DNA of 64,000 bases from Methylobacterium sp. R2-1 (GTDB lineage Bacteria; Pseudomonadota; Alphaproteobacteria; Rhizobiales; Beijerinckiaceae): NCBI RefSeq assembly GCF_014191355.1, contig NZ_JACHWM010000008.1:1-64000 (forward strand). The letters are read 5' to 3'. The notes under the pieces are model-generated. The model did no database searches. It was given only the letters and a program-made list of their open reading frames with translations, and was not told where the DNA came from. Both the position numbers and the translations under genes were made by a program. Within the stretch, counting starts at the first letter, position 1; every line of letters starts with the position of its first letter. Positions 121 to 18,172 of the stretch are shown piece after piece.

Positions 121-174
121 CAGGGCCTCCTAATCGTCTGTGTCGTTGATCGAAGAAGCGTGACGCCCGCGCCC

Positions 175-2250
175 TTAGGCGTACTTGGCGATGACCTTGT
201 CGGCCTCGCCGCGCGGCACTTCCTCGTAATGGTCGAACTGCATCGTGAAGTTGGCGCGGCCCTGGGAGAAGGAGCGCAGCTGGTTCACGTAGCCGAACAT
301 GTTGGCCAGCGGCACCATCGCGTTGATGACGTTGGCGTTGCCCCGCATGTCCTGGCCCTGGATCTGGCCGCGGCGGGAGTTGAGGTCGCCGATGACCGAA
401 CCGGTATACTCTTCCGGCGAGACGACCTCGACCTTCATCACCGGCTCGAGCAGCACCGAGCCGCCCTTCTGCAGCGCCTCACGGAAGGCAGCGCGGGAGG
501 CGATTTCGAAGGCGAGCGCCGAGGAGTCGACGTCGTGGTAGGCGCCATCGATCAGCTCGACCTTCACGTCGACCACCGGGAAGCCGGCGAGCACGCCCGC
601 ACCGAGGACCGAGTTGAGGCCCTTCTCGACGCCAGGGATGTACTCCTTCGGCACCGCGCCACCGACGATCTTCGACTCGAACGAGAAGCCGGCACCCGGC
701 TCGTTCGGCTCGACCACGAACTTCACCCGAGCGAACTGACCGGTACCGCCGGTCTGCTTCTTGTGGGTGTAGTCGATCTCCTGACGGCGGGTCAGCTTCT
801 CGCGGTAGGCGACCTGCGGCTGGCCGATATTCGCGTCGACCTTGTAGGTGCGGCGCAGGATGTCGACCTTGATGTCCAGGTGGAGCTCGCCCATCCCCTT
901 GAGGATGGTCTGGCCCGATTCCTGGTCCGTGGAGACGCGGAAGGACGGGTCCTCGGCAGCGAGCTTCGAGAGCGCGATGCCGAGCTTCTCCTGGTCGGCC
1001 TTCGACTTCGGCTCGACGGCGATCTCGATGACGGGCTCGGGGAACTCCATCTTCTCGAGGATCACAGCCTTGTTCGGATCGCACAGGGTGTCACCGGTGC
1101 GGGTGTCCTTGAGACCGGCCAGCGCGACGATGTCGCCAGCGAAGGCCTCCTTGACGTCCTCACGGTTGTTGGCGTGCATCAGGAGCATGCGGCCGACGCG
1201 CTCCTTCTTGTCGCGCGACGAGTTGATGACGTTGGCGCCCGACTCGACCTTGCCGGAATAGACGCGGCAGAAGGTGATCGTGCCGACGTGGGGATCGTCC
1301 ATGATCTTGAAGGCGAGCATGGAGAAGGGATCGCTGTCGGACGGGTGGCGAACCACCTCTTCCTCGGTCTTGAAGTCGAGGCCCTTGATCTCGCCGCGGT
1401 CGGCGGGAGACGGCAGGTAATCGACAACCGCGTCGAGGAGCGGCTGCACGCCCTTGTTCTTGAAGGCCGAGCCGCACAGCACCGGATGGAAGGCACGAAG
1501 CTGCACCGCCTTGCGCACGAGTTTGCGCAGGGTTTCCTCGTCCGGCTCGACGCCGTCGAGATAGGAGGTCATCGCGTCGTCGTCGAGCTCGACGCAGGCC
1601 TCGATCATCTTGGTGCGGTATTCGGCGGCCTGATCGGCGAGATCAGCCGGAATCTCCTCCTCGGAGAAGTTGGCGCCGAGCGCCTCACCCGACCATACGA
1701 TCGCCTTCATCTTGATGAGGTCGATCACGCCCTTGAAGCTTGACTCGGCACCGATCGGCAGCTGCAGGCAAACCGGCTTGCCGGCCACACGGCTGATGAT
1801 GTCGGCAACGCACTTGAAGAAGTCGGCGCCGATCTTGTCCATCTTGTTGACGAACACGACGCGCGGCACGTCGTACTTGTCGGCCTGACGCCACACGGTC
1901 TCGGTCTGGGGCTCGACGCCCTGGTTGCCGTCGAGCACGCACACGGCTCCGTCGAGCACGCGGAGCGAGCGCTCCACCTCGATCGTGAAGTCGACGTGGC
2001 CGGGGGTGTCGATGATGTTCAGACGCTTGTCGCGCCAGAAGCAGGTGGTCGCAGCCGAGGTGATCGTGATGCCACGCTCCTGCTCCTGCTCCATCCAGTC
2101 CATCGTGGCGGCGCCCTCATGGACTTCGCCGATCTTATGGGACTTGCCGGTGTAGTAGAGGATCCGCTCGGTCGTCGTGGTCTTGCCGGCATCGATGTGG
2201 GCCATGATGCCGAAGTTGCGGTAGTCCTCGATCGCGTGCGTGCGGGGCAT
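175..2250 (-). CDS. fusA: Elongation factor G
   Basis: EF-G is the GTPase that drives ribosome translocation and, with RRF, ribosome recycling. The 691-residue product has the usual full length. The G domain shows the G1 loop [15 protein letters not shown] near residue 17, the switch I segment ending [11 protein letters not shown], the G3 motif DTPGHVDF near residue 82, the G4 motif NKMDK and the G5 segment GSAFKNKG. The later EF-G domains are intact, including the domain IV sequence [12 protein letters not shown] and the C-terminal NMFGY segment. It starts 63 bases after rpsG and precedes tuf, so it is part of the str operon. Nothing unusual is seen. Confidence 0.98.
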
Positions 2251-2313
2251 CGGGGTCTCTCCGGGAGAAAGCAGGCTTGGAGCGCAGCCCGGTGGCCGCG
2301 CTCGACAGGCGAA

Positions 2314-2784
2314 TTACCAGCGGTAGTGCGAGAAGGCGCGGTTGGCCTCGGCCATCCGGTGGGTGTCTTCGCGCTTCTTGACGGCGTTGCCGCGGTTGTT
2401 GGCGGCATCGAGCAGCTCGGCGGAGAGACGCTCGACCATGGTCCGGTCGTTGCGGCCGCGGGCGGCCTGGATCAGCCAACGGATGGCGAGAGCCTGGCGG
2501 CGCTCGGTGCGGACCTCGACGGGGACCTGATAGGTCGCGCCGCCGACGCGGCGGGAGCGGACCTCGATCGCCGGGGCGACGTTGTCGAGCGCGGCGCGGA
2601 ACACCTCGATCGGGTTGGCGCGGGCGCGGCTCTCGACGAGGTCGAAGGCGCCGTAGACGATCCGCTCAGCCGTCGACTTCTTGCCCTCGTACATGATCGA
2701 ATTCATGAACTTGGTGAGGACGATGTCGCCGTACTTGGCGTCCGGGATGATCTCGCGCTTCTCGGCTGAGTGACGACGGGACAT
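2314..2784 (-). CDS. rpsG: 30S ribosomal protein S7
   Basis: S7 nucleates assembly of the 30S head by binding 16S rRNA and contacts E-site tRNA. The 156-residue product has the normal bacterial length. It begins [20 protein letters not shown] and carries the family signature around [16 protein letters not shown], the [11 protein letters not shown] segment, and the terminal [13 protein letters not shown] block. It lies 108 bases after rpsL and 63 bases before fusA. In enterobacteria S7 represses its own operon by binding the rpsL-rpsG spacer; the longer 108-base spacer here could have a similar role, but no conserved structure was established. Confidence 0.98.
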
Positions 2785-2892
2785 TTTTTCGACTCTCGAA
2801 AAATATGGTCTTAAGCACCTCGCGCAGGCCGCCTTGAGCTGATCGCCGGCGACATCCTTACGAGGCCGTGGAAAGCCTTCGGTCCGAAAAGA

Positions 2893-3264
2893 TTACTTCG
2901 GACGCTTGGCGCCGTACTTCGAACGGCGCTGCTTGCGGTTCTTGACGCCCTGCGTGTCGAGCACGCCGCGCAGGATGTGGTAGCGCACACCCGGAAGGTC
3001 CTTCACGCGGCCGCCGCGGATCATGACCACGGAGTGCTCTTGAAGGTTGTGGCCCTCGCCCGGGATGTAGCCGATCACTTCGAAGCCGTTGGTCAGGCGC
3101 ACCTTGGCGACCTTACGCAGAGCCGAGTTCGGCTTCTTCGGGGTCGTGGTGTAGACGCGCGTGCAGACGCCGCGCTTCTGCGGGCAGGCGTTGAGCGCCG
3201 GCACCTTGTTGCGCGCCTTCTGCGCCTTGCGCGGCTGGGCGATCAGCTGGTTGATCGTCGGCAT
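2893..3264 (-). CDS. rpsL: 30S ribosomal protein S12
   Basis: S12 lies at the decoding centre and controls translational accuracy. The 123-residue product begins [20 protein letters not shown] and has the family motifs [20 protein letters not shown] and [12 protein letters not shown]. The lysines that mutate to give streptomycin resistance in other bacteria (TPKKPNSA and RVKDLPG) are both wild type here, so the gene predicts a streptomycin-sensitive ribosome. It is the first gene of the str operon, with a leader region of up to about 390 bases before the next gene upstream. Confidence 0.98.
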
Positions 3265-3653
3265 CCTGTGCCCTCTTCATCCGGCCGCACGGGGCGGCCA
3301 CCGTCTGAAACCTGTCGAAGCCCCTTGCGGAGCGGTCGGTCCGCGAGCGAACCCGCGGCAAAACGAATAGCGCCAGAGGCCGATAAAGGCCTTTGGCGAT
3401 GGTGAGGCAGAGGATCACGCCGTGAAACGACGCGTTCTTACCCGCTGATCTGACGAGTACGTCAGGGTGTGATGCCGGTATCGGTCTGACGACGGTTGCC
3501 GAAGCCCCTGGCTTCGACCCGAAAGCGACTCTCGATCCACCGGAGTGGCGCGCTTCTACGCGGGAGGGTCGGCGCCGTCAATGGCCGGAGAGGATAAAGT
3601 TCGATGAACGGGCGGTCGATCTTCGGCCAAGCTAATTCTCGGCTGGAACACCG
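3265..3653. other. Non-coding leader/promoter region of the str operon
   Basis: This stretch holds no convincing gene. It separates the 3' end of the SMC-like gene from rpsL and should contain the str promoter and leader, reading leftwards. A 6-base-arm inverted repeat (CTGACG AGTA CGTCAG) lies at 3450-3465. No clear -35/-10 pair could be assigned by eye. Confidence 0.6.
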
Positions 3654-6600
3654 CTATTCGGCCGCGTCTGAAAGGCGAAACGCCTCGATTCCGCGCCGCT
3701 CCGGGTTGATTTCGGCGAGCGCCCGCTTCGCGGTTTCCAATGGATGCTCCGCCTCGATTCGGACGGAGGCGAGATCGGGGCTCTTGTAGACGGTGACGAC
3801 GGTGTCCATCACCTCGGTCAGGGTGGTGCGCTTGTCCTCCGGCGCTGCGATCAGAAGCTGCAGGCCCCAGGCGCGGAAAAGATCGACGAGCGACTGGCTG
3901 TTGCGCACGTCGAGCTTGGAGAACGCCTCGTCCAAGAGGCAGAGACCGAGCCCCGGCGTCTCGTCGCCGGGTCGGTCGCCGGGATAGTAGGCGGAGGACA
4001 TGGAGGCGGCGATCGCCACGTAGAACGGCGCCTGCGCCTCGCCGCCGGAGCCACGGAGCGCACGACTCGACAGAGTGGTGCGATTGCCCGCCCGGTCGCG
4101 CATGCCGATCTCGTAGACGAAGTAGTTGCGGTAGTCGGCCAATCGCGCCGCGCTCTCCTCACCCTCGATCAGTGCGGTGATCTCGGCAAGCGCCGCGGCG
4201 AGCGGGTTCTTGTCCGGGCCGTCCTCGGGCGCATGATCGAGGCTTGGCAGCACGGCCTGCGCCGCGTCGGGCGAACGGGCCACCTCGGTGGCGAGCGCGT
4301 GGACGGCGGCGTAGCGGCGGTCCACCTCCGCCTCGAAGGCGTAGGTCTGGCCCGTAAAAGTCTGCGAGGCGAGGCGCTCGTTGAGCGCGTCGAGCCTGGC
4401 GCGCATCCGCTCGAACTTGTCGGCGAGCCGGGTCAGCAGATCCTCCGTCATCAGGCGGCGCATCTCGGCCTCCGCCCGGAGCGACTGGTCGCGGTAGCGG
4501 CGCAGCTCATGGCCGGCCACCTCGTCCCGCTCGCGCACGGCCCAGGCATAACCGAAGGAGGCCGGCTGCTCGCCCGACCCCAGCGGATTCTCGACGCGCC
4601 AGGCGGCGCAGTACTCGGCCAGGTCGCGCTCGGCGGCACGGCCCTGGTTGCGTACGCTGTCCGCTGCCTCGCGGGCGGAGGCACGGGCCTGCGAGGCGAG
4701 GGAGGCCAACGCCTTGGTGTCGAGCGCGGCGCGGTCGGCGCGGGCTCCGGCGATGCCGGCCACCGTATCCGGGACGTCGGCGGGAACGGTGCCGGTGAGG
4801 CGGATGCGCACCGTGTCGCCGGAGGTCCAGCGCTTGAGCGCCGTGCGGTAGGCCAGGAATGCGGCGCGCGCCGCCTCCCTTCCCTGTGCGACCCGAGCCT
4901 TCAGCCCTGCCTCCTCAGCGAGCAGGCCGTCGCGCTTGGGCTCCAGCACCTGCACCAGTTCGGTCAGGTAGGCGGAGCGCTCCTTCTGAAGCTCCTTCAG
5001 CTCCGCCTCGATCACGCCGGCATCGGCGCGGGCGACGGTTTCCTGCTCGGTGGCGAGGCTGCGGCGGCGGCCCTCGATGGCGTCAGCCTCTTCGCGCAGG
5101 GCCCCAAGATCGACAGGTGCCTCAGTGAGCCGGCTCCGCAGCAGCGCAGCGATCCGGGCAGCCTCGCGCATCACCGTTGCCTCGGCCCGCAGGGTCCGCG
5201 CCTCCTCGCGCGCCTCGTCCAGGCGACGGCGGGTCTCGGCGGTGGGCCCGCGCTGGCCGCGTGTCATCATCAGCGGCACGGGACGCACCACCGAATAGGC
5301 CATCCCCGAGGTCGAGCGCCCGCTCGGCGCCACCGCACGGCTCATGGTCCGGAGCGCCGCGTCGTCGGGCGCGAGGTCGTAGCCGCCGAGCCGGGCGGCG
5401 AGAAACGCCTCGGCGTGATCGCTGTCGGTCTCGATCAGGCCCATCGGCCCGTCATCGAAGCGGCGCGCCGCGCGGCGGGCGGTGTCGGTGGTCTTCACCA
5501 GCAGGCAGCGGAAGAACTGGTTCTTTCGCGATTCGAGCAGGGCGAAGGCGCGGTCGAGGCGGTCGGGCTCGACCACCAGGGCTTCGCGGGCGCGGCCCAA
5601 GAGCCCTTCCAGCGCCGGGCCCCATTTCGGATCGACGATCTCGGCAAGTTCGCAGATCGGCGCCGCCTCGATCCCGAGCCGGCCCAACTCCTCGCGAAAG
5701 GCCTCCGTGTCCGAGGACAGGCGCGCGGCCGAGGCGCGGCCGGCCCCGACCTGCACGTCGAGCCCCCGGACCTCGTTCTCGCGCTCGCGGGCCTTGAGGG
5801 CGAGTTCTTCCGCTTCCTCTTCCAGAGCGTCAGACACGTCGGGCATCTGCGCCAGCCCGTCGAGCAGACCCTTCAACGGCCCGTCCGCGCGTAAAATGTC
5901 CTCCGGCGGCGCCTCGCGGCGGAGCCCCGAGCGGGCGCAGGCCTCGACGATACGTGCCGCCCCCAGATCGATCCGGCGCAAGGGGCCACTGATCGCACTG
6001 AGGCGGCCGGCATCCTGTACGAGGCCGACGATGGCGGCGACGCGGTTCGTCAGGTCGCGCCGGTCGCGAGCGACCATGGCGAGGCCGGCATGGGAGGCGG
6101 CGAGCCGCGCCTCCGCCGCACTTCCGACGATCAGCGCCTTACGGGCGGCGATCTCGGCGTCGATCTCGCGCACGAAGCTCTGGCTCGTCGCCACACTCTC
6201 GCGGGCGATGCGCAGGCGCTCGCTCGTCTCGGAGAGCAGGCCGCGGGCCTCCGCATGATCGAGGATGCGGCGGCGCAGGTCGGCCCCGGCGGCGCGCATC
6301 TCGTCGAGGGCAGCGGTGAGGCTCGCGCGCGCCCAGTTCTCGTAGCGCTCGCAGATGCGCGAGAGATGCGCGAGGCGCTTCTCCAATTCCTCGATGGTCT
6401 CCAGAAGCCGCCGCCAGGTCTCGATCGACTGGCGGATGCGGGCGACGTCGAGCGGCTCGGCCTCCAGCACGAAGCTGCGCACGAAGGCGCTGGTGTCGAA
6501 GATCGGCTTGAACGCCACTGCGTTGGAGAAGGTGCGCAGGAACTGGCGCGGGTCGGGGACCGCCGCGCCCTCGCGCAGGGTCGCCAGAACGGCGGCGGTG

Positions 6601-7133
6601 AAGCGTTCGCCGGAGGTGCGGAACTCCTCGAAGCTGTCAGCGCGGCGGCGAAGATCCGCAGCGACCTCGGTCCAGGGAGCGACGAAGCTGCCTTCGCTCG
6701 TCTCCCGCACGTAATCGGCGATCTCGAAACGGTGACCGATAGCGACGAAGCGGGAGAGTGTCTCCTCCTTCGGCTCCTCCGAGCGGGCGGCGAGTGCCAG
6801 CCCCACCGTAACGATCCGCCCGCTCGCGGGATTCTCGAACACGAGCGCGATGAGGGTCTCGCAGGCCTCCCGCGTCGGACGCCCGCCCTCGGCCGGGTCG
6901 CTGATCCAGCCGAGGCAGTAGTCGCGCACGGTGCGAGCGCTGCGGCCCGAGGCGGAGGCATTCAGTGCCAGACGGCTCGCGTTGTTGCCCGCGAGCACGG
7001 TACCGACCGCGTCGAAGATCGTGGACTTGCCCGCCCCCGTAGGACCGACGAGCGCCGCCGCGCCCCGGATCCGGATCTGCTCGCGCCGGATGAGGTACCA
7101 ATTCGAGATCGCGATGTCGGTGAGACGGTACAC
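3654..7133 (-). CDS. SMC-like ATPase of a MukB/MksF/JetC (Wadjet) system
   Basis: This is the large ATPase subunit of a MukBEF/MksBEF/Wadjet-type SMC complex. Such complexes bind and extrude DNA; Wadjet versions recognise and cleave closed circular plasmids. From the GTG at 7133 the product has 1159 residues. The Walker A loop GPTGAGKST is at residues 30-38, just after an N-terminal strand reading ISNWYLIRREQIRIRG. Charged, Ala/Leu/Arg-rich coiled-coil segments fill the middle. The C-terminal head has the signature GSGGEAQAPFYVAIAAS and Walker B LCLLDEAFSKLD near residue 1067. This matches JetC/MksF in length and order, and differs from canonical Smc in lacking an obvious SMC hinge and having MukB-like head motifs. 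An upstream TTG at 7202 is an alternative start. Its presumed partners are 5 kb away (12169-14229) rather than adjacent. The plus-strand reading frames across it are shadows. Confidence 0.88.
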   Translation of the reverse strand: MYRLTDIAISNWYLIRREQIRIRGAAALVGPTGAGKSTIFDAVGTVLAGNNASRLALNASASGRSARTVRDYCLGWISDPAEGGRPTREACETLIALVFENPASGRIVTVGLALAARSEEPKEETLSRFVAIGHRFEIADYVRETSEGSFVAPWTEVAADLRRRADSFEEFRTSGERFTAAVLATLREGAAVPDPRQFLRTFSNAVAFKPIFDTSAFVRSFVLEAEPLDVARIRQSIETWRRLLETIEELEKRLAHLSRICERYENWARASLTAALDEMRAAGADLRRRILDHAEARGLLSETSERLRIARESVATSQSFVREIDAEIAARKALIVGSAAEARLAASHAGLAMVARDRRDLTNRVAAIVGLVQDAGRLSAISGPLRRIDLGAARIVEACARSGLRREAPPEDILRADGPLKGLLDGLAQMPDVSDALEEEAEELALKARERENEVRGLDVQVGAGRASAARLSSDTEAFREELGRLGIEAAPICELAEIVDPKWGPALEGLLGRAREALVVEPDRLDRAFALLESRKNQFFRCLLVKTTDTARRAARRFDDGPMGLIETDSDHAEAFLAARLGGYDLAPDDAALRTMSRAVAPSGRSTSGMAYSVVRPVPLMMTRGQRGPTAETRRRLDEAREEARTLRAEATVMREAARIAALLRSRLTEAPVDLGALREEADAIEGRRRSLATEQETVARADAGVIEAELKELQKERSAYLTELVQVLEPKRDGLLAEEAGLKARVAQGREAARAAFLAYRTALKRWTSGDTVRIRLTGTVPADVPDTVAGIAGARADRAALDTKALASLASQARASAREAADSVRNQGRAAERDLAEYCAAWRVENPLGSGEQPASFGYAWAVRERDEVAGHELRRYRDQSLRAEAEMRRLMTEDLLTRLADKFERMRARLDALNERLASQTFTGQTYAFEAEVDRRYAAVHALATEVARSPDAAQAVLPSLDHAPEDGPDKNPLAAALAEITALIEGEESAARLADYRNYFVYEIGMRDRAGNRTTLSSRALRGSGGEAQAPFYVAIAASMSSAYYPGDRPGDETPGLGLCLLDEAFSKLDVRNSQSLVDLFRAWGLQLLIAAPEDKRTTLTEVMDTVVTVYKSPDLASVRIEAEHPLETAKRALAEINPERRGIEAFRLSDAAE

Positions 7134-7680
7134 CGGCCCGGCCGCCTGTCCCCGAGATTGAACGAGAGACAGGGCAATGGACGCTGCGCCCCGCTCACGC
7201 AAGGGCGGGGTCGTCCGATGGCGTGGGCGCGTCGATGGACACGGCCCGAAGGCGCCAAAAACCGGGGTCTCGATTTATTCGAGCGGCCGGGGCGACGCTA
7301 CAACAATCACCGACCCGTGATTTGACGAAGCAACACCGATTCGAGACCAGATCTGGCCGGACGTGGGACAGCGCTCGACGCTTTGAACAACTGCTTCAGC
7401 TTGCCTTCAACGGCAGGTTCACGAAGGCCGGTCGATTACTGCTTTTCGACCACCCTATGCGTACTCTGCCACATGCGAGAACCATCAATTTTGACAAAAA
7501 CTCAATACGATCCATGCCATACGGTGGGATGCGTTCCGCATCTGTCCAGAACATCGATCGTCGAAATGCCCGCCCGCCGTCCTCGCCTAACTTACGGGGT
7601 TCTTTTCATTGTCGCTTCGATTGTGCTGTGGGGCACAGCATCGTGGATGGCAGGCACCATCATTTGGGTCTGAAGTCGGT
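7134..7680. other. Mostly non-coding interval upstream of the SMC-like gene
   Basis: About 550 bases lie between the 5' end of the SMC-like gene and a small convergent-side membrane gene. The DNA is less GC-rich than its surroundings between about 7300 and 7660. The only candidate gene is a 35-codon frame at 7566-7673. The promoter for the SMC-like gene should be here, but no box was recognised. Confidence 0.5.
7566..7673 (+). CDS. Possible 35-residue single-pass membrane peptide
   Basis: This short frame starts MPARRPRLTYGVLFIVASIV and encodes a basic N-terminus followed by one hydrophobic helix of about 20 residues ending at ASWMAGTIIWV. That shape is typical of small bacterial membrane peptides. 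There is no good ribosome-binding site just upstream, and the frame could be chance. It faces the small membrane gene at 7681-7908 tail to tail. Confidence 0.25.
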   Translation: MPARRPRLTYGVLFIVASIVLWGTASWMAGTIIWV

Positions 7681-7908
7681 TCAGATATCTTTCTTGTAAG
7701 CGATATACCCTCCGAATACATAACCTCCCTGCAGCGCGCAGAGGGAGGCGGCGATCATTAGAAGGTCAGGCAGCACAAACTGGCCGCTGTGAAGGTGATA
7801 AAGAGTCCGTACAACAATAATAAAGGAACTCGCGACGGCAAGCATTCCCCAGTGATAGAACAGGCCGATCAGCAAGCCGGCGATGACGAAAAGCGGGATC
7901 GCTAACAC
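7681..7908 (-). CDS. Small hydrophobic protein, two to three membrane segments
   Basis: The 75-residue product is almost wholly hydrophobic. One helix spans MLAIPLFVIAGLLIGLFYHW, a second spans MLAVASSFIIVVRTLYHLH, and a third weaker one covers LLMIAASLCALQGGYVFGGY, with a basic KKD tail. No known family was recognised. It stands alone between the SMC-like gene and the MarR-GNAT gene, and the DNA around it is less GC-rich than the window average. Function unknown; the composition makes a real membrane protein likely. Confidence 0.55.
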   Translation of the reverse strand: MLAIPLFVIAGLLIGLFYHWGMLAVASSFIIVVRTLYHLHSGQFVLPDLLMIAASLCALQGGYVFGGYIAYKKDI

Positions 7909-8286
7909 TGGACCATGCCCCTATCCTGCCGGATCGGCATCTGAGAGCCTTTTCGTGGAGATCTTTCCTTAGGCTATCGTCGCACCGGACTGCACGCAAA
8001 GGGACGCGTGGCGTAAAACTAGGCGGATTTTGCAGGTTTCCCTTTATCGGACGGCATCGTTAACGAACCGATCACCCTGAGGATGGGTGTCTGGCCAGGG
8101 GTGCGCCGCCATGGCGCTTCGTCGTATCGACCTGCGCATCAGCATACCCGGCAAGCTTCGGAGGCGCATGGGTCGTCCCCCTGGTACGCCTCGGGTATCC
8201 ACGGCTTCTCCGGTCGCGGTGCCGATCCGTTCAGCCCATCCGAGCCTTTAGTTGACTCCGTCAACTTTCTCGTTGATGCTGAGGCC
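7909..8286. other. Divergent intergenic region with MarR-type operator
   Basis: This 378-base region lies between two divergent genes. It holds a palindrome at 8250-8266, listed separately, immediately before the MarR-GNAT start. An open frame runs through the region in phase with the MarR-GNAT gene, but it has no ribosome-binding site and no protein-like composition. Confidence 0.55.
8250..8266. promoter_or_regulatory. Perfect 17-bp palindrome, probable MarR operator
   Basis: The sequence AGTTGAC TCC GTCAACT is a perfect inverted repeat with 7-base arms. It ends 20 bases before the ATG of a MarR-GNAT regulator. MarR-family repressors usually bind palindromes of this size over their own promoter, so autoregulation is the simple reading. 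Confidence 0.65.
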
Positions 8287-9252
8287 ATGACCGATGCCAG
8301 CGCCGAAGACGTCATCGCCAGAGTCCGCCGCTTCAACCGGTTCTACACGGGGCTCGTCGGCGCGCTCGACGATCAGTTCCTCGGCTGCGACGTCACGCTT
8401 CCGGACGCACGCCTGCTGTTCGAGATCGCCACGCACGACCCAGCGGAGGAGCTGATCACCGCGCGCGCGGTGCAGGCGACGCTCGGCATGGATGCGGGCT
8501 ATGTCAGCCGGATCCTGGCCCGTTTCGAGCAGCGGGGCTGGATCACCCGTGCCCGCGGCGCGGATGCGCGCGCCCGGCCGATCCAGCTGACCGAAGCCGG
8601 GCGCAGGGCGTTCGAGGAGGTGGACGGACGGCAGCGCGCGGCCGTCGCAAGCCTCGTCGGGGGACTCGATTCCGTCCAGAAAGCGGATCTGGCGGAGGCG
8701 ATGGCGCGCGTGCGCCTCTTACTGCAACCCGACTCTGTTCCAGGCTTCACGATCCGCCCGTTCCGCACCGGCGATATGGGCTTGATCGCGGCTCGGCAAT
8801 CGATGCTCTACGCCCAGAGCCACGATTGGGGCCGCGGCCTGGAAATCGTCGAGGGCGAGGCCACCACCAACTTCCTGCGGAATTATAAGCCGGGGCGCGA
8901 ACAGTGCTGGATCGCGGAGATCGACGGCGTGCTGGCGGGGTCCGTCTTCCTCACCGATGAAGGCGACGGTACCGCGCGGCTGCGCCTCCTCTATGTCGAG
9001 CCTTTCGCACGCCGCCGCGGCATTGGCGATACGCTGGTCGAGACCTGCATCGGGTTCGCCCGCGAGACGGGCTATGCCCGCCTGACGCTGTGGACCCACA
9101 CGGTTCTGGAAAGCGCCCGGCGTATCTATGCCCGCCACGGCTTCGCCTGCGTTGAGACCGCGACCCATACCGCCTTCGGCATGCCGGTCGAGGGCGAAAT
9201 CTGGGTGCTGCCCCTGGGCGAGCCGGTGGAGGGACCGGGGCGGGCCGCGTGA
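8287..9252 (+). CDS. MarR-family regulator fused to a GNAT acetyltransferase
   Basis: The 321-residue product joins two domains. Residues 1 to about 145 form a MarR winged helix, with recognition region TLGMDAGYVSRILARFEQRG and wing ITRARGADARARPIQLTEAG. From about residue 153 (GFTIRPFRTGDMGLIAARQ) to the end is a GNAT acetyltransferase, with the acetyl-CoA loop ARRRGIGDTLVE and the motif B segment YARHGFACVET. MarR-GNAT fusions are known, but their substrates are mostly undefined. The ATG at 8287 was chosen because the MarR domain begins there and an operator-like palindrome lies 20 bases upstream. Its neighbours on the right are an esterase and a dioxygenase homologue on the opposite strand. 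Confidence 0.85.
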   Translation: MTDASAEDVIARVRRFNRFYTGLVGALDDQFLGCDVTLPDARLLFEIATHDPAEELITARAVQATLGMDAGYVSRILARFEQRGWITRARGADARARPIQLTEAGRRAFEEVDGRQRAAVASLVGGLDSVQKADLAEAMARVRLLLQPDSVPGFTIRPFRTGDMGLIAARQSMLYAQSHDWGRGLEIVEGEATTNFLRNYKPGREQCWIAEIDGVLAGSVFLTDEGDGTARLRLLYVEPFARRRGIGDTLVETCIGFARETGYARLTLWTHTVLESARRIYARHGFACVETATHTAFGMPVEGEIWVLPLGEPVEGPGRAA

Positions 9253-9274
9253 CGGGGGCGCTGCCCCCGCCACG
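9248..9274 (+). terminator. Hairpin overlapping the stop codon of the MarR-GNAT gene
   Basis: An 11-pair stem with one mismatch (CGTGACGGGGGC / GCCCCCGCCACG, 3-base loop) includes the TGA stop. No run of T follows, so it is a weak or factor-assisted terminator at best. Confidence 0.45.
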
Positions 9275-9351
9275 TCTTACGAGCATCTCGCAGAGCACCT
9301 GATCATGGTTTCTCCGGCGGTCGCATCGGGCAGCGGTGCCGCGAGGACCAT

Positions 9352-9981
9352 TCACCCGCCAAAATTCTTGGCGAGCCACGCCCCGGAGGCAGCGAGGTCG
9401 GCCTGGGACAGCCCGTGCCCGGCCGGATTGACCGTGTGAGTCACCGAGGCGCCCGCCAGCCGGAGGCTGGAGGCGAGCCGCTCGGCATTGTCGGCGGGCA
9501 CGATCGGGTCGAGGGCGCCCGAGAGCAGCAGTACCGGGCGGCCGGCGAGATCGGCCGGCGGACTCTCGGCGAGCGGCACCATCGCCCGCAGCAGCACCGC
9601 ACCCGCGAGCACCTCCGGATGCAACAGGAGTGTCGCGGCTGCGATGTTGGCTCCGTTCGAGAATCCGACCGCCACCGGCGCCGTAAGACCGTAGGCTGCC
9701 CGCGCCTGCGCGACGAAGGCTGCGAGGTCGCCGGCCCGGCGACGGACATCCGCCTCGTCGAACACGCCCTCCGCGAGACGGCGGAAGAAGCGCGGCATGC
9801 CGTTCTCCAGAACCGGCCCGCGGGGCGAGAGCAGCGCGGAGCCGGGCGACAGGGTGCGGCCGAGGGGAAGCAGGTCGGTCTCGTCGCCACCCGTACCGTG
9901 CAGCAGCAGGAGCGGCGGCGCGCTCCCGTCGGTGCCGGGCTCGAAGCGGTGGACAAAGTCGAAGGTGACGCCGTTCGTCAT
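9352..9981 (-). CDS. Phospholipase/carboxylesterase-type alpha/beta hydrolase (MhqD-like)
   Basis: The 209-residue protein is a single-domain alpha/beta hydrolase of the phospholipase/carboxylesterase group. The nucleophile elbow GFSNGAN puts Ser108 at the centre. Asp158 in GALDPIVPAD and His189 in PAGHGLS complete the triad, and the oxyanion segment is LLLHGTGGDETD near residue 28. No signal peptide is seen, so it is probably cytoplasmic. It follows a glyoxalase-fold dioxygenase homologue by 77 bases on the same strand. In Bacillus the corresponding pair MhqD/MhqO is induced by quinones and other electrophiles; a similar role here is inferred from the pairing. Confidence 0.82.
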   Translation of the reverse strand: MTNGVTFDFVHRFEPGTDGSAPPLLLLHGTGGDETDLLPLGRTLSPGSALLSPRGPVLENGMPRFFRRLAEGVFDEADVRRRAGDLAAFVAQARAAYGLTAPVAVGFSNGANIAAATLLLHPEVLAGAVLLRAMVPLAESPPADLAGRPVLLLSGALDPIVPADNAERLASSLRLAGASVTHTVNPAGHGLSQADLAASGAWLAKNFGG

Positions 9982-10058
9982 GGCTGTCTCCGTTCATTAC
10001 TGAGGGTGATGCGACCGCCCGGAAATGATCCGGGCGGTCGCGGGGGCGTGCGGCGGGG

Positions 10059-10988
10059 TCAGGCGACCTTCGGCAGCACCGCCTCGATCTGCCCGCGATG
10101 CGGCTCGAGGAAGGGCGGCAGCTTCAGCCCGGTCCCGAGTTCCGCCGCCGGCTCATCGACGGCGAAACCGGGCGCGTCGGTGGCGATCTCGAACAGCACA
10201 CCGCCGGGCTCGCGGAAGTAGACCGAGCGGAAGTACTGCCGATCGCGCTGCTCGGTCACGGATAGGCCGTGCCGATCGCTCAGCCGCTCCGTCATCGCCG
10301 CCTGCGCCGCGTCGTCGGCGGCGCGGAAGGCAATGTGGTGGACCGAGCCCGCCCCCTGCCGCCCGGGCAGGAAGTCGCCGACCGCCCGGAGCGTCACGAA
10401 CCCACCGAGCCCCGCCCCACTCGTCAGCCGGATCTGGCTGCCCTCGCGGGCGGCCTCCTCGAAGCCGAGCACGTCGGTGAGGATCGCGGCGGTGGTCTCC
10501 GCCCCTCGCAGCAGCAGGGTGACACCGTGGAAGCCGCGGATCGCGGCCTCCGGCGCGATGTCACCGGGGACCCAGGCCGGCTCGGCTTCCGCCCCCTCGA
10601 CCCCAACGAGCGCCAGCGGCATCCCGTCGGGATCGCGGAAGCGCAGCACCGTCTCGCCGAAGACCGTCACCGGCGCCTCATGAGAGACGTTCAGCGAGAC
10701 GAAGCGGTGCGTCCAGGTGCCGATCGCGGCGCGCGGCACGCGGAAGGCAGTCTCCGAGACCTGCCCGATGCCGACCCGGCCGGGGGCGGCCTGTGCGATG
10801 GGGAAGAAGGTCAGGATCGTGCCGGGCGCGCCCACCTCGTCGCCGAAATAGAGGTGGTAGGTGCCCGGATCGTCGAAGTTGACGGTCTTCTTCACCAGCC
10901 GCAGGCCGAGCACGCGCGTGTAGAAGTCGATGGTGCGGGCCGTATCGCTCGCAAATGCCGTGACGTGGTGGATGCCGTGCGTGCTCAT
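10059..10988 (-). CDS. Ring-cleaving dioxygenase homologue of the glyoxalase (VOC) fold, MhqO-like
   Basis: The 309-residue protein has two vicinal-oxygen-chelate modules. The first begins GIHHVTAFASD with metal ligand His8 and includes FYTRVLGLRLVKKTVNFDDP. The second, from about residue 150, has RGFHGVTLLL, SVHHIAF with a ligand His near 217, and VLFEIATD with Glu267. This is the pattern of the MhqO/LinE-like family, often annotated as a ring-cleaving dioxygenase. The ATG at 10988 fits the family start, although the frame stays open further upstream. It is divergent from a LysR gene across a palindromic spacer and followed by an esterase, so the three genes probably form one inducible unit. 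Confidence 0.83.
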   Translation of the reverse strand: MSTHGIHHVTAFASDTARTIDFYTRVLGLRLVKKTVNFDDPGTYHLYFGDEVGAPGTILTFFPIAQAAPGRVGIGQVSETAFRVPRAAIGTWTHRFVSLNVSHEAPVTVFGETVLRFRDPDGMPLALVGVEGAEAEPAWVPGDIAPEAAIRGFHGVTLLLRGAETTAAILTDVLGFEEAAREGSQIRLTSGAGLGGFVTLRAVGDFLPGRQGAGSVHHIAFRAADDAAQAAMTERLSDRHGLSVTEQRDRQYFRSVYFREPGGVLFEIATDAPGFAVDEPAAELGTGLKLPPFLEPHRGQIEAVLPKVA

Positions 10989-11092
10989 GGTGCGGATCTC
11001 CTGTCGGTAGTAATCGCCGCGGGGATCCGTGTTCGGTCCGGGCTGCGATCGGTGTGAGCCCAATCTGGCCCTTGCCTAAGCCCGTGAAAATG

Positions 11093-11116
11093 GAAACGAT
11101 TGAAACGTATCGTTTC
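11093..11116. promoter_or_regulatory. Palindrome between the dioxygenase and LysR genes, probable LysR site
   Basis: GAAACGAT and ATCGTTTC form perfect 8-base arms separated by 8 bases; the spacer itself begins TGAAACG, repeating part of the arm. It lies 12 bases before the LysR start and about 105 bases before the divergent dioxygenase start, the usual place for a LysR recognition site. Confidence 0.65.
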
Positions 11117-11128
11117 TGGATTTGATCA

Positions 11129-12070
11129 ATGGCGAAGCTCCCCGATTTCGAGGCCTGGGCCGTGTTCGCGGTGGTAGCCGACGGCCTCTCCTTCGCCCGC
11201 GCGGCGGAGGAACTGGGGCTGTCGAAGGCGACGGTCTCGAAGGCGGTGGCGCGGCTGGAGACCCGGCTCGGCGCGCGGCTGTTCCACCGCACCTCCCGCC
11301 GCCTCGCCCTGACGGAGGCCGGGCGCGCGGCTCGGGAAGACGCGGCGGGGTTGCTCGCCGCCGGAGAGGCGGCGGAGGCCCGCGCCCTTGACGCCAACGG
11401 CGTGCCGCGGGGCCGGGTGCGGCTCGCGGCACCGATGTCCTTCGGCGTCGCCCATCTCGCGCCGGTGCTGCCGGAATTTCTGGCTTCGCACCGCGAGGTC
11501 TCGGTCGACCTGCACCTGTCCGACGCGCTGGTCGATCTCGTCGGCGGCGGCTTCGATCTCGGCCTGCGGATCGCGGCGCTGCCCGATTCCTCGCTGCGGG
11601 TGCGGCGGCTCTGCGGCGTGCGTCGCTCGCTCGTGGCCACGCCCGCCTATCTCGAGCGGCACGGACCGCCACAGCATCCGGAGGATCTGAAGGCCCGCGC
11701 CTGCCTCGGCTACGCCTACCTGCCGACGCCGGACCGATGGCCCTTCACCAACGCCGCGGGTGAGACGGTCACCATCGTTCCCGAAGGCCCCTTACGGGCC
11801 AACAACGCCGACGCCCTGGCGCCAGCCCTGCGCGCCGGGCTCGGGCTGGCGGTGCAGCCGGATTTCACGATCTGGGAGGATCTGAAGTCAGGTCGCCTCG
11901 AACGAGTCATGCCGGACTGGCAGCCGCCGCCGATCGCCCTCAACCTCGTGATGCCACCGGGCCTTCCGCGGCCGGCGCGGGTCACGGCGCTGATCGCCTT
12001 CCTGGAGCGGGCTTTCTCCACCGCGCCCTGGGCGCAGGAAGAGGCTTCGCCTCAGATCGGTTTGCGTTGA
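11129..12070 (+). CDS. LysR-family transcriptional regulator
   Basis: The 313-residue product has the N-terminal LysR helix-turn-helix (residues 8-65: FAVVADGLSFARAAEELGLS, then KATVSKAVARLETRLGARLF) and a type 2 periplasmic-binding-like effector domain from about residue 92. It belongs to the DhcR/AaeR-like group that has LSKATVSKAVARLE in the recognition helix. It is transcribed away from the dioxygenase and esterase genes across a 24-base palindrome, so it most likely regulates them in response to an aromatic or quinone-like compound. Its stop codon lies inside a strong hairpin. Confidence 0.88.
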   Translation: MAKLPDFEAWAVFAVVADGLSFARAAEELGLSKATVSKAVARLETRLGARLFHRTSRRLALTEAGRAAREDAAGLLAAGEAAEARALDANGVPRGRVRLAAPMSFGVAHLAPVLPEFLASHREVSVDLHLSDALVDLVGGGFDLGLRIAALPDSSLRVRRLCGVRRSLVATPAYLERHGPPQHPEDLKARACLGYAYLPTPDRWPFTNAAGETVTIVPEGPLRANNADALAPALRAGLGLAVQPDFTIWEDLKSGRLERVMPDWQPPPIALNLVMPPGLPRPARVTALIAFLERAFSTAPWAQEEASPQIGLR

Positions 12071-12096
12071 TCCCGCCCCTCGGTCGGGATCAACGC
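12064..12096 (+). terminator. 12-pair hairpin at the 3' end of the LysR gene
   Basis: GCGTTGATCCCG and CGGGATCAACGC are a perfect 12-base inverted repeat with a 9-base loop, including the LysR stop codon. No T run follows. Confidence 0.6.
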
Positions 12097-12132
12097 GCAC
12101 GGCGGACGAAAGCCGCCACGCATTCGCGTGGG

Positions 12133-12165
12133 CGAACGGCGATGAGACGGGCTCATCGCCGTTCG
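12133..12165 (-). terminator. 14-pair hairpin directly after the jetB-like gene
   Basis: CGAACGGCGATGAG and CTCATCGCCGTTCG pair perfectly over 14 bases with a 5-base loop, ending 4 bases from the stop of the jetB-like gene. Together with the LysR hairpin it forms a double block between jetB and the genes to its left, so read-through from jetAB into jetC 5 kb away is unlikely. Confidence 0.65.
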
Positions 12166-12168
12166 GTC

Positions 12169-12804
12169 TCAGGCGCCCCTCCCCTCCCCGGCGGAGGCCC
12201 AGGCGCGAACCTGATCCATCCAAGCATCCGGCGAGAGCACGGTGATGCCCGGCATCACCATCAGCGGTGTCACCCGCTCAGCCCGGTCGCGCTCGCCCAG
12301 CCGCAGGGCGCCCTTGCGGGCGAATAGGCGCAGGATCTCGATCAGGCGTGCCTCGTCGGGCGGTTCTGTCCGCGCGGCAGAGCGGATCGCGTCGGCGATG
12401 TCGTCGGTGGTGCATTCCACCGTGCCGTCGGTGGAGACGCGGTGGTCGCGCAGGCCCTCCTCGTAGGCGAGCCGGAGCGCCAGCAGCACCAGCGTCTCGT
12501 CCTTGCGCAGGCGCTCACCCTGGGCGTCGTGGCGCACGCCGTCCGGCGGCAGGGCGAGGAACACCATCTGGTCGCGATGGGCGACCTCGAAACGGTAGCC
12601 GAGACAGGCGAAGTAATCGCGGAAGAACGGCGCGTAGTGCCGGGCGAGCTCATAGGACCGGCCGATGCCGGTGGTCGCGGCGTAGATGCACTGGCTCTTC
12701 AGCATCACCTGAAGCGCGCGGATCAGTTCCTCCTCGCTCGGCGCGGAACTGCCGGGTGGGGGCATTTCCTCGCCGTCGAGGATGGCGCGGAAGGGTTCGA
12801 GCAT
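12169..12804 (-). CDS. JetB/MksE-like subunit (DUF4194 type) of the SMC system
   Basis: The 211-residue protein resembles the DUF4194/MksE (JetB) accessory subunit, which binds the kleisin of MksBEF and Wadjet complexes through winged-helix domains. Supporting features are the segment RALQVMLKSQCIYAATTGIG near residue 30, the paired-helix region RSYELARHYAPFFRDYFACL, and the later block DETLVLLALRLAYEEGLRDH followed by an acidic stretch and IEILRLFARKGALRLGERD. It begins 12 bases after the jetA-like gene on the same strand, so the two are co-transcribed. It is followed by a strong hairpin. No function outside an SMC complex is expected. Family assignment rests on pattern recognition, not a search. 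Confidence 0.8.
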   Translation of the reverse strand: MLEPFRAILDGEEMPPPGSSAPSEEELIRALQVMLKSQCIYAATTGIGRSYELARHYAPFFRDYFACLGYRFEVAHRDQMVFLALPPDGVRHDAQGERLRKDETLVLLALRLAYEEGLRDHRVSTDGTVECTTDDIADAIRSAARTEPPDEARLIEILRLFARKGALRLGERDRAERVTPLMVMPGITVLSPDAWMDQVRAWASAGEGRGA

Positions 12805-12816
12805 CGTCTTGTCCGT

Positions 12817-14229
12817 TCAGCCTGCTTTGCCGGCTCCGCGCCGGGCGGCGGGGGGCGGTACGCGCTCGATCATGAAGTCCGGGCAGTCGAGCCAGCCGTT
12901 AGAGACGCGGCCCTCGATCCGGGCGACGCGGTAGCGGCTGCGCAGCATGCCGTCGAACAGCACGTCGATCTCGCGCAGGCGCTGGAACACGACGAAGGCA
13001 TCGACGTCATCCACTTGGATGTCGGAGCCGCGCAACGCCTTCATCTGCACGAGCCGGGCATCGAGATAGGCGACGATGCGCTCCGGCGTCACCGTGATGC
13101 GGCGGCGGAATTCGTCCTTGGCGGCGATGAACGCCTCGATCGCCGGATCGACGTCGATCTCGGGCAGCGGCTCGTACTCGATGATCCGGCGCGGCATGCG
13201 CGGGTTGGTGAGCTGCGGCGGTCCGATCGGCGGACGCAGCAGCGACACCTGGGGTAAGGGCAGCCCGGCAAGGTCGTCCTCGCCCGCTCCGATCGCGCGA
13301 AGCGCCGCCGCCGCCCGCTCGATCCGGGCGGAATCGCGCGGATCGCGGTAGCGGAGCGCGGCCGAGATGCGCCGCTCCAGTCGCGCCACCACCTCGGCCA
13401 CGGCGTCGAGATGCGGGTCGAGCCCTTCGAAGATCGAGAGGATCTCGACGAGGTCGGTGCGCACCATGCGTTCGGCCGCGGTGATGTCGGCGGCGCGGCC
13501 CTCCCGCAGATTACCCTCCGCCAGCGCCCTGAGCGTCAATGGATCGCGCAGGGCGCGGCTCGCCTCGCGTACGATGCCGGAGCGGAAGCGGAATGGGTTG
13601 AAGCGGGTGTGCAGCGTCCGGTAATCGGAGACGAGGTGGCGCTCGACGAACTCCTCGAAGTAGAGGCGGAAGGCCGCGCCGAGATCCGGCTCGCGCAGGA
13701 TTCGCTCTTCGAGCTTGCGCATGGCGCCGGCCAGCCCGCGCAGGTGGCCGAGGAAGGTGCGCGAGGCCTTGGCCGCGTTGCGCAGCGCCTCCGAGCGGTC
13801 GGCGGGGCTGGCGATGGCGCTTTCCAGCGCGCTCAGGACTTCAAGCACGGCGCCGCCGTAGGAGCGGGTCTCGCCGCGCTCGATCCGAGCCAGCTCCTCG
13901 ATCAAGAGCCGTGCGTCGGGGTCGAAATCGACCACCGGCACGTAGCGCTCGCGCCGCTCCACCAGCCAGCCCGCCTCGATCAGCCGCCGGAAGACCGCCG
14001 AGCGCCGCTCGATCGGATCGACGGGCGTGGCCTCGTCGTCGGCGATCTCGGCCTGACTCCAGCCGGCGGAAAAGTCGCCGATCGCGGCCAGCAGCTCGCT
14101 CTTGCGCAGAGGCTCGGCGGCGTCGCCGAATACGCGCGCATGCAGGTGCAGCAGCAGGGCCGCGTTGAAGGCGCGGCTCGGCGAGGCGAGCGGGCGGAAG
14201 AGGTCGTCGGCGAGGTGAGTGAACAGCAT
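12817..14229 (-). CDS. JetA/MksB-like kleisin subunit (DUF5716 type) of the SMC system
   Basis: The 470-residue protein matches the JetA family, the kleisin-like subunit of Wadjet/MksBEF complexes. Its N-terminus, MLFTHLADDLFRPLASPSRA, is typical of the family and leads into a winged-helix region (FRRLIEAGWLVERRERYVPVV). A long central helical part carries ALESAIASPADRSEALRNA and FVERHLVSDYRTLHTRFNPF. The C-terminal domain holds FVVFQRLREIDVLFDGMLRS. The ATG at 14229 was chosen over an upstream in-frame start at 14274, because the extra 15 residues are Gly-rich and unlike the family. It leads the pair jetA-jetB and is divergent from a HAD phosphatase. Confidence 0.82.
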   Translation of the reverse strand: MLFTHLADDLFRPLASPSRAFNAALLLHLHARVFGDAAEPLRKSELLAAIGDFSAGWSQAEIADDEATPVDPIERRSAVFRRLIEAGWLVERRERYVPVVDFDPDARLLIEELARIERGETRSYGGAVLEVLSALESAIASPADRSEALRNAAKASRTFLGHLRGLAGAMRKLEERILREPDLGAAFRLYFEEFVERHLVSDYRTLHTRFNPFRFRSGIVREASRALRDPLTLRALAEGNLREGRAADITAAERMVRTDLVEILSIFEGLDPHLDAVAEVVARLERRISAALRYRDPRDSARIERAAAALRAIGAGEDDLAGLPLPQVSLLRPPIGPPQLTNPRMPRRIIEYEPLPEIDVDPAIEAFIAAKDEFRRRITVTPERIVAYLDARLVQMKALRGSDIQVDDVDAFVVFQRLREIDVLFDGMLRSRYRVARIEGRVSNGWLDCPDFMIERVPPPAARRGAGKAG

Positions 14230-14360
14230 GATGGGACGATCACGACCACAACCTGCTCCGCCACCGCCGGTCAATGCTCGTGCCGCTCCATCCCCTTATG
14301 CATCGAGCGGGACATGCACCCGTTGTCCCTGCGGCCGGCACCCGATGGAGTTGTCATAAC

Positions 14361-15035
14361 ATGCGCATCGAAACCGTGTTCTTGTTCGATCTCGACGGCA
14401 CGCTGGTCGACAGCGTCTACCAGCACGTGCTCGCCTGGAAGGAGGCACTTGATGAGGAGGGGATTCCGCTCTCGGTCTGGCGCATCCACCGCAAAATCGG
14501 GATGAGCGGCGGGCTGTTCACCAACCAGCTCCTGCGCGAGACCGGGCTCGACATCGACCCGGAGCGGATCGATCGGCTGCGGCGCTTGCATGCGGAGGCT
14601 TATGGTCGCCTCTCCAAGGGCGTCGTCCCACTGCCCGGCGCCAAGGCGCTGCTCGCGACGCTCACCGACAATCGCATTCCCTGGGCGATCGCCACCAGCG
14701 GGCGGATGGAGACGGCCGGCCACAACCTCGTGGCTCTCGGAGTCGATCCCGCTCAGGTGCCGGTGGTGACTCGAGACCTCGTGAAATACGCCAAGCCCGA
14801 TCCCGACCTGTTCCTCGCAGCCGCCGAGCGGCTGAACGCGCCGATCGAGCATGCGGTGATCGTCGGCGATTCGATCTGGGACATGTTGGCGGCCCGCCGC
14901 TGCCGCGGACTCGGGGTCGGCCTGCTCTCGGGCGGGTACGGCACGGAGGAGCTGGAACGCTCCGGCGCCGTCAGGGTCTACGACGATCCCGCCATGCTTC
15001 TGGAACATCTCGACGAGGTCGGCGGCCGGCGCTGA
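14361..15035 (+). CDS. HAD-superfamily phosphatase (phosphoglycolate/beta-phosphoglucomutase-like)
   Basis: The 224-residue protein is a class I HAD hydrolase. Motif I FDLDGTLVDS gives the nucleophile Asp10 and the acid Asp12. Motif II is ATSGRMET, motif III is the lysine in YAKPDPDLF, and motif IV is VGDSIWDMLAA. The helical cap between motifs I and II (IHRKIGMSGGLFTNQLLRE) resembles the phosphoglycolate phosphatase/beta-phosphoglucomutase group. The substrate cannot be read from the sequence. It starts 131 bases from the divergent jetA-like gene. Confidence 0.88.
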   Translation: MRIETVFLFDLDGTLVDSVYQHVLAWKEALDEEGIPLSVWRIHRKIGMSGGLFTNQLLRETGLDIDPERIDRLRRLHAEAYGRLSKGVVPLPGAKALLATLTDNRIPWAIATSGRMETAGHNLVALGVDPAQVPVVTRDLVKYAKPDPDLFLAAAERLNAPIEHAVIVGDSIWDMLAARRCRGLGVGLLSGGYGTEELERSGAVRVYDDPAMLLEHLDEVGGRR

Positions 15036-15259
15036 ACGCGACGGAGGCGATGCGGCCAAGTTGAGCCCGGCGGCCACGCTGCCTAACGCGGTCTGTCAGC
15101 CCATGAAGCAATCCTGACAACTGGATGAACGGCTGCTTGCACCTTCGTTCATGCGACAGGATGCAACGTGAGCTTCGGCACATTGAGAGTGAACCGAAAC
15201 CATGACGCGCTCGTTGGGGTGCCAATGGATCGGCGATCCACCTCTTTCGGAGAGACTTG

Positions 15260-15640
15260 ATGAAAAAGCTTGCGATTCTGTCCGCGGTGGCCGTCCTCGG
15301 CGTGGGCGTCCTGTCCTCGACCGATGCCGAGGCCCGTTGGCGCGGCCGTGGCGGTGGTGGCGCTATCGCGGCCGGTGTGATCGGCGGCCTTGCGGCTGGC
15401 GCGCTCGTGGGTGCGGCCGCTTCGAACGCCTACGGCTACGGCGGTTACGGCTACGGCGGTGGTTACGGGTACGATTACGGCTATGCCCGCCCGGTCGCCA
15501 ACTATGGGTACGGCTACGCCCGTCCCGCCTATGGCTACCGCAGCGTCGGCTACTACGACGGCGGCTACTACGCCCCGCGCCGCGCCTATGGCGGCTATTC
15601 CTGGGGTGGTCCGGCCTACGATTACGGCTACGGCTGGTAA
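15260..15640 (+). CDS. Exported glycine/tyrosine-rich protein
   Basis: The 126-residue product has a clear signal peptide (MKKLAILSAVAVLGVGVLSS, cleavage probably after TDAEA). After that come a Gly/Ala hydrophobic stretch resembling a glycine zipper (GVIGGLAAGALVGAAASNAY) and a tail of about 70 residues dominated by Gly-Tyr repeats (YGYGGYGYGGGYGYDYGYA). Such proteins are common in Methylobacterium and related genera and have no assigned function. The ATG at 15260 follows a GGAGAG ribosome-binding site. A good terminator follows at 15674. Confidence 0.8.
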   Translation: MKKLAILSAVAVLGVGVLSSTDAEARWRGRGGGGAIAAGVIGGLAAGALVGAAASNAYGYGGYGYGGGYGYDYGYARPVANYGYGYARPAYGYRSVGYYDGGYYAPRRAYGGYSWGGPAYDYGYGW

Positions 15641-15673
15641 GTCTCTCCGCCGTCATCGGCACTTATGACGACG

Positions 15674-15704
15674 CGGCCGCGCCCCATCCGGGCGCGGCCG
15701 TTTT
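15674..15704 (+). terminator. Rho-independent terminator
   Basis: CGGCCGCGCCC and GGGCGCGGCCG form an 11-pair stem with a 5-base loop, followed by TTTT. It ends the Gly/Tyr-rich gene and may also serve the convergent lyase gene. Confidence 0.85.
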
Positions 15705-15710
15705 CGCAAT

Positions 15711-16601: not shown

Positions 16602-16779
16602 GTCTCGTCTCCTCCCGGGAGCCGGTGAGTGGCGCCGCGCGCCGCCTCCCACCCTCATTTGAATGCATAATACGGATGATCCCGATCGGTTGGAAGCGGC
16701 CGGAAGCGAGGCTACTTAAACGCGGGTGCCCGGCAACCGCCAGAGGGCGCGTTCCCCGCGGTGTTTTGGAGAGTGTCCG

Positions 16780-18064: not shown

Positions 18065-18172
18065 CCTTCTATCCGTGAGAAAACCGCACAGAACCCGTGC
18101 GGAGAGAGGCTCTCATCCAGCCAAACTCACGAGTCTAAGTTCCCCGCGCAAGCGTCAGCGAGGACCTTTCGT

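Follow-up and report, generated by a model that had tools for sequence, protein, structure and literature searches.

The stretch of DNA analysed here, called the window, comprises 64,000 nucleotides of Methylobacterium sp. R2-1 (positions 1 to 64,000 of contig NZ_JACHWM010000008.1, assembly GCF_014191355.1) and carries the genes jetA, jetB and jetC for a kleisin, a KITE subunit and an ATPase of the structural maintenance of chromosomes (SMC) type. Their products appear to form a complex of type I Wadjet descent without the nuclease JetD, and this complex is quite probably the resident condensin of its host after the loss of SMC-ScpAB. It is also likely that, outside the basal clade of the genus, a former anti-plasmid weapon that has no nuclease serves as the sole condensin, in a replacement separate from that by MukBEF. 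The central evidence is one of distribution: the jet genes occur where SMC-ScpAB is missing, and JetABC has therefore probably taken over the condensin job.

Jet genes of the window

The three genes are as follows.

3654..7133, minus strand: jetC, mksB-like SMC ATPase (open frame 3654-7202; likely GTG start at 7133; PADLOC PDLC00506, JetC1, 1943.7 bits over the whole length)
12169..12804, minus strand: jetB, KITE subunit, mksE-like (PADLOC PDLC00475, 390 bits; PF13835, DUF4194, 67 bits, 2e-18)
12817..14229, minus strand: jetA, kleisin, mksF-like (ATG at 14229; open frame to 14274; PADLOC PDLC00466, 744.8 bits; PF18982, 223.7 bits, 4e-66)

On the minus strand the order is jetA, jetB, about 5 kb of other DNA and jetC, followed by rpsL, rpsG and fusA; 12 bp lie between the jetA stop and the jetB start. 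The initial annotation had described three genes of the Wadjet or MksBEF type on one strand, with full-length JetA and JetB and with jetC about 5 kb from jetA-jetB. Its coordinates, the shared strand and the family types all hold, and all three genes are full length, as JetA, JetB and JetC match the type I Wadjet (Jet1) profiles of PADLOC and cover them nearly from end to end. The Walker motifs of JetC, also given as intact, are seen in the translation as GPTGAGKST (Walker A) and LLDEA (Walker-B-type), and both PF13555 and PF13558 score above their Pfam cut-offs. The GTG at 7133 is the likely start of jetC because in five relatives the frame is broken by an early stop, at query residue 17 or at 19, which lies ahead of residue 24.

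The genome of R2-1 holds a single match each for JetA, JetB (the sole DUF4194 match) and JetC. A second complete Wadjet operon, jetABCD, had been considered as a source of partners for these proteins, and none was found in this genome. The second-best AAA_29 match of the genome (L002) is an AAA_23 protein.

A sequence search of the PDB returns relatives for JetC, solely insignificant and unrelated rows for JetB, and no relative for JetA. The predicted structure of JetA, of middling confidence (pLDDT 70), has MukF and JetA kleisins as its best matches, at similar Z. In the Pfam scan of the window proteins, names for Muk proteins did not turn up.

Absence of the nuclease JetD

The JetD_C family (formerly DUF2220) has no match in a profile search of the R2-1 genome, the N-terminal DUF3322 not having been searched genome-wide. 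The same family is found in none of the 111 genomes that make up the genus sample (G and L codes are handles for genomes and loci), and it is detected in the positive control, Corynebacterium glutamicum. With no JetD found in the genome or the genus, the system of the window is, as judged from profiles, not a complete Wadjet.

A very improbable explanation is that the Wadjet is complete, with a nuclease, either unrelated to JetD or highly diverged, that is encoded elsewhere. The three Jet proteins do score best against Wadjet type I models, and where jet genes are already dispersed the fourth could be dispersed too. The absence of JetD_C from the whole sample argues against this explanation, and so do the gene neighbourhoods. 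When the open frames of ten representative loci (90 residues or longer) are compared with 71 loci, no neighbour besides the jet genes stays linked across clades, and non-jet frames that do not overlap jet genes match at most 29 of the 71. One frame with matches in 47 loci (L128:6771-7505) was rejected as a fourth subunit; it overlaps the jetA start on the opposite strand, and its matches may just mirror jetA. Moreover, the nearest relatives with contiguous jetABC are also without JetD in the frames tested.

Relatives outside the genus bear on the timing of the nuclease loss. The JetC model, applied at 1e-20 to 385 genomes of the class, gives six matches, two in the genus and four outside it. 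In all four distant alphaproteobacterial carriers jetD, of the same JetD_C family, adjoins jetC. Likewise, jetD stands beside jetC on a Microvirga plasmid and, per its annotation, on an Erythrobacter plasmid. Among the relatives whose neighbourhood was read, the closest are the Rhizobium leguminosarum megaplasmid pRlX5 (L217; JetA 43%, JetB 44% and JetC 39% identity) and a Salipiger plasmid (L218; 37%, 36% and 32%, respectively), both with contiguous jetABC. JetD was not found within ~5 kb of these genes on pRlX5 (six frames by Pfam, two by PADLOC) or on the Salipiger plasmid (three frames by Pfam, two by PADLOC), the rest of either genome not having been searched. An unrooted JetC tree of 15 sequences places both between Methylobacterium and the JetD-bearing group (0.997). 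An unrooted JetA tree of 22 sequences keeps the JetD-bearing group together (0.986) and differs from the JetC tree in the order of the others. Since the nearest relatives have no JetD nearby and hold this position in the JetC tree, the loss of JetD probably preceded the arrival of the jet genes in Methylobacterium or was complete by then.

JetA proteins of Aureimonas and Antarcticirhabdus (P0101, P0105, P0110, P0120) are 44-47% identical to that of the window.

Distribution of SMC-ScpAB in the genus

A strong JetC match is present in 91 of the 111 genomes, and JetA is found in the same 91; four further JetC matches, with E values of 7e-4 to 1e-3, are left out of the count. SMC (SMC_prok_B, TIGR02168) is present in 19 of the 20 Jet-negative genomes, in 13 over the family cut-off and in six (G024, G132, G133, G068, G061 and G064) below it as frames or pieces, and in a single one of the 91 Jet-positive genomes (G077). 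In the other 90 no SMC is found, their best SMC_prok_B match reaching 1.9e-14 and lying in the coiled coil. In R2-1 itself no SMC is found, the best TIGR02168 match having 46.1 bits vs a cut-off of 567, and an SMC search of G000, G086, G019 and G107 also gave none. ScpA is detected in 18/111 genomes, namely 17 of the 20 Jet-negative ones and G077 (one of 91 Jet-positive). ScpB is detected in 21/111, namely 19 of the 20 Jet-negative genomes (all except G092, with G081 counted through an orphan-type copy) and two of the 91 Jet-positive ones, G077 and G107, the latter with an orphan-type copy. Neither ScpA nor ScpB is found in R2-1. SMC is present in two genomes of the same family and other genera (G204 and G323), as well as in the four distant JetC carriers.

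The site of scpAB can be compared directly. In the SMC genome G106, ScpA and ScpB are encoded between nagZ and tatA. In G091, a Jet genome complete in one contig, 242 bp separate the nagZ stop from the tatA start, and there is no scpAB between them.

In a RecN+RecF tree of ten genomes, with G323 as the outgroup, the SMC genomes and G081, which groups with them, stand apart from the five Jet genomes included. The named Jet loci include those of Methylorubrum species and of the deep-branching M. soli and M. trifolii. Excerpts of the published phylogenomics describe a basal group C in the genus, which includes M. aquaticum, and the SMC-bearing clade is apparently this group. The initial annotation, which read the locus as a split system, was right in its family assignment and missed the absence of both JetD and SMC-ScpAB from the genome.

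The same distribution bears on an unlikely reading, in which JetABC keeps a function in defence or plasmid control and performs it without cutting, e.g., by compacting or silencing small circular DNA, and the loss of SMC is unrelated. It would suit the plasmid-borne jetABC of pRlX5 and Salipiger, which have no JetD in the neighbouring frames tested. NCBI names also label the JetA proteins of the genus as anti-phage, an annotation that would mislead, no nuclease having been found. Against this reading, 91/111 genomes carry jet genes that co-vary and are dispersed, unlike Wadjet, whose distribution is called sporadic in passages of PMC10586767, and the jet genes are near-exclusive with SMC-ScpAB. 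A condensin role for JetABC is preferred on these grounds.

Exceptions to the distribution

Several observations weigh against that role. Most of the distribution goes back to one evolutionary event, so the genomes counted are not that many independent tests. The SMC search covered five scored candidates per genome; ScpA detection is weak in several genomes; and the call of SMC in G064 is based on a 59-residue piece at a contig edge and a partial ScpB. The missing scpAB site is observed in one genome only. A lost smc site was not found: in a search that was itself checked, the smc flanks of G106 match nothing around the G086 origin and nothing in 140 kb of G019, and give a single weak match (26%) in 1.2 Mb of G091. 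G081 has no SMC, ScpA or Jet by these searches at a listed completeness of 100%, and G077, an M. hispanicum assembly, has both SMC and Jet. In G007 (L188) an internal stop interrupts jetC near residue 813-818, and no SMC was found; jetC is in two pieces in G131 and jetA in two pieces in G090, both without SMC. If these disruptions are real, the complex is dispensable in all three genomes. Finally, the jet genes are selectively maintained, with ratios of non-synonymous to synonymous substitution (dN/dS) of 0.015-0.26 vs four relatives, and the values of the passenger genes are similar (0.067-0.27), so they show maintenance of the jet genes and not special constraint.

Disrupted jet copies in G007, G131 and G090, and a genome such as G081 that seems to have neither system, would be expected if JetABC were accessory, SMC-ScpAB had been lost for another reason, and the chromosome were folded by ParABS, other factors or nothing. 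This appears quite improbable: the distribution of SMC and Jet is near-exclusive, and the dN/dS values speak for maintenance of the jet genes.

Over the aligned parts, the SMC of G077 (L193, contig C20) shares 38-46% identity with two SMC frames from the other clade. This comparison uses L072, L073 and L193 only; L071, L074, L075 and L076 were left out because the frame taken for each was its longest open frame and not that of SMC. The nearest database proteins are 80-93% identical to the G077 SMC. The SMC and ScpAB stretches of G077 have tetranucleotide correlations of 0.53-0.71 with its own jet stretches, and the jet stretches correlate at 0.82-0.95 with those of two close species. The listed contamination of the assembly is 4%. 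The SMC and ScpAB contigs (L193 on C20, L195 on C4) look foreign and are possibly contamination, yet they are counted. The composition test is suggestive only, because correlations down to 0.67 can also occur for stretches from other genomes of the genus, and that of the G077 SMC stretch with G019 reaches 0.74.

Two observations concern ScpB. At 11518-12378 of L184 (G081:C203) lies an orphan ScpB-like gene; within the 18 kb that were read, neither ScpA nor SMC was recognised. Second-type ScpB copies similar to that of G081 are present in G012, G015 and G107.

Separation of jetA, jetB and jetC

Measured between their alignments, jetA and jetC are less than 0.9 kb apart in nine of the 91 Jet genomes. 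Distances of 0.9-2 kb occur in 23 genomes, of 2-4 kb in 30 and of 4-6 kb in 13, and two genomes exceed 6 kb (12.4 kb and 2.49 Mb). In 14 genomes the two genes are on different contigs, some possibly through assembly breaks. The gap has space for jetB alone in nine of the 91, and a trio of LysR, VOC and MhqD-like genes, which in the window lies between jetB and jetC, is found downstream of jetC in L101, L112 and L146 of another clade. For these two reasons the 5-kb gap of the window looks like a clade-level rearrangement of a tight cluster. Among the loci read, only Methylorubrum and its close kin have rpsL next to jetC. Moreover, jetA is apart from jetB-jetC in M. gregans, M. hispanicum and G086, and jetC is apart from jetA-jetB in M. 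brachythecii, M. gnaphalii and G109; with several different separations in the genus, the cluster has been broken up repeatedly.

The initial annotation had suggested insertion into an ancestral operon and a comparison of gene order among relatives. The comparison over the genus, with adjacency kept in 9/91 genomes, points to a tight cluster that was later rearranged. Foreign DNA inserted into an operon is too simple as the whole story, since the trio adjoins jetC in three genomes of another clade and several separations exist.

JetA, JetB and JetC distances co-vary over the 60 sets with all three (r 0.96-0.97; 0/500 shuffles), and also in the rows of six split genomes (r 0.90-0.95). The motif GPTGAGKS is kept in 116 of 127 jetC rows, in which some genomes appear twice; in the remaining 11 the frame that was read had been truncated, either at a contig end or at the stop that precedes the start codon. 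Where stops occur within JetA and JetB matches of the fetched loci checked, they are confined to the last residues.

Proposed role and comparison with known SMC complexes

Wadjet type I (JetABCD, MksBEFG or EptABCD) is the system whose JetA1, JetB1 and JetC1 profiles are matched by the window. In contrast to it, no JetD is found here, there is no contiguous jetABCD operon (~5 kb between jetB and jetC), and the genes are dispersed and carried by 91/111 genomes of the genus. According to excerpts of PMC12287153 and PMC10586767, JetABC is the loop-extruding, DNA-measuring part of Wadjet and JetD is the cutter. Passages of PMC10586767 further take MksBEF of Pseudomonas aeruginosa as probably JetABCD minus JetD, and passages of PMC7485682 describe it as a chromosome organiser beside SMC.

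The window has the same make-up as nuclease-free MksBEF, with a kleisin, a KITE subunit and a Muk-like SMC and no nuclease. The likeness to the P. aeruginosa complex is one of description, the sequences not having been compared, and there are two differences: MksBEF works there beside SMC-ScpAB, whereas no SMC-ScpAB was found here, and the Methylobacterium genes frequently lie outside a single tight cluster. MukBEF of enterobacteria, which apparently replaced Smc-ScpAB in an ancestor according to excerpts of PMC10586767, is close in that the JetA model matches the MukF kleisin, with JetA chains at a similar Z. On the other hand, the sequence profiles favour Jet1, and MukBEF is another lineage. 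SMC-ScpAB is the complex for which the same job is proposed, and the other clade of the genus retains it; it differs in its SMC family and is not found in Jet genomes apart from G077.

We propose that the JetC motor, the JetA kleisin and the JetB KITE subunit would form an SMC complex that descends from type I Wadjet and is without JetD. After the SMC-bearing clade had split off, JetABC would have become the resident chromosomal condensin and SMC-ScpAB would have been lost, an order of events that we infer. By analogy with the loop extrusion described for JetABC of Wadjet and the chromosome organisation described for MksBEF, the Methylobacterium complex should extrude chromosomal loops. It would most likely fold and segregate the chromosome by ATP-driven loop extrusion without SMC beside it, and may well be essential there. 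Jet genes that are fixed and vertically inherited would need no single operon, and local rearrangements could part them several times, the 5-kb gap of the window being presumably one of these.

If JetABC is indeed the condensin of these genomes, the replacement would offer a natural test of the view that housekeeping SMCs descend from defence SMCs. The genus has an SMC-ScpAB clade and a JetABC-only clade, and the step between them could be tested in the tractable M. extorquens. In the parts of the open-licence PubMed Central (PMC) literature that were covered, no case was found of a nuclease-free Wadjet replacing SMC-ScpAB across a genus. No open-licence PMC paper was found that links Methylobacterium to MksB, or to ScpA together with condensin, or that links Methylorubrum extorquens to Wadjet, and among the papers listed for the host order and family none contains MksBEF. 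A term search of the available main text of PMC8561711, a comparative-genomics paper on the genus, gives no Smc, ScpA or condensin.

Genes and repeats between jetB and jetC

The gap and its borders contain the following features.

2893..3264, minus strand: rpsL, downstream neighbour of jetC (PF00164), then rpsG (TIGR01029) and fusA (TIGR00484)
8083..9252, plus strand: MarR-GNAT fusion (PF12802, PF00583; start uncertain, 8083 or ~8287)
9248-9274 and 12064-12096: further inverted repeats in the intergenic stretches scanned
9352..9981, minus strand: MhqD-like esterase (NF047577 139.9 bits, below its cut-off of 325; alpha/beta hydrolase families)
10011..10041, no strand assigned: 13-bp perfect inverted repeat between the VOC and MhqD-like genes
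10059..10988, minus strand: VOC/glyoxalase-family enzyme (PF00903, 69.8 bits; open frame 10059-11063; the start at 10988 is our own reading)
11093..11116, no strand assigned: operator-like palindrome GAAACGAT-N8-ATCGTTTC between the LysR and VOC genes
11129..12070, plus strand: LysR-family regulator, divergent from the VOC gene (PF03466, PF00126)
12133..12165, minus strand: 14-bp perfect inverted repeat, terminator-like, directly behind the jetB stop codon

The four genes of the gap had been called unrelated to the jet genes, and their families agree with this: LysR and MarR-GNAT on the plus strand, VOC and MhqD-like on the minus strand. Two palindromes and two hairpins had also been reported; repeats are indeed present, and their count is five inverted repeats, not exactly two of each kind. 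They are ordinary terminator- and operator-like repeats, and the idea that the hairpins are anything special was dropped. No Rfam match is found at gathering thresholds in positions 1-20000 of the window. Because the repeat at 12133-12165 sits behind the jetB stop, jetAB and jetC are probably separate transcripts. The palindrome with GAAACGAT may be the operator of a quinone-type detoxification module that includes the MhqD-like esterase.

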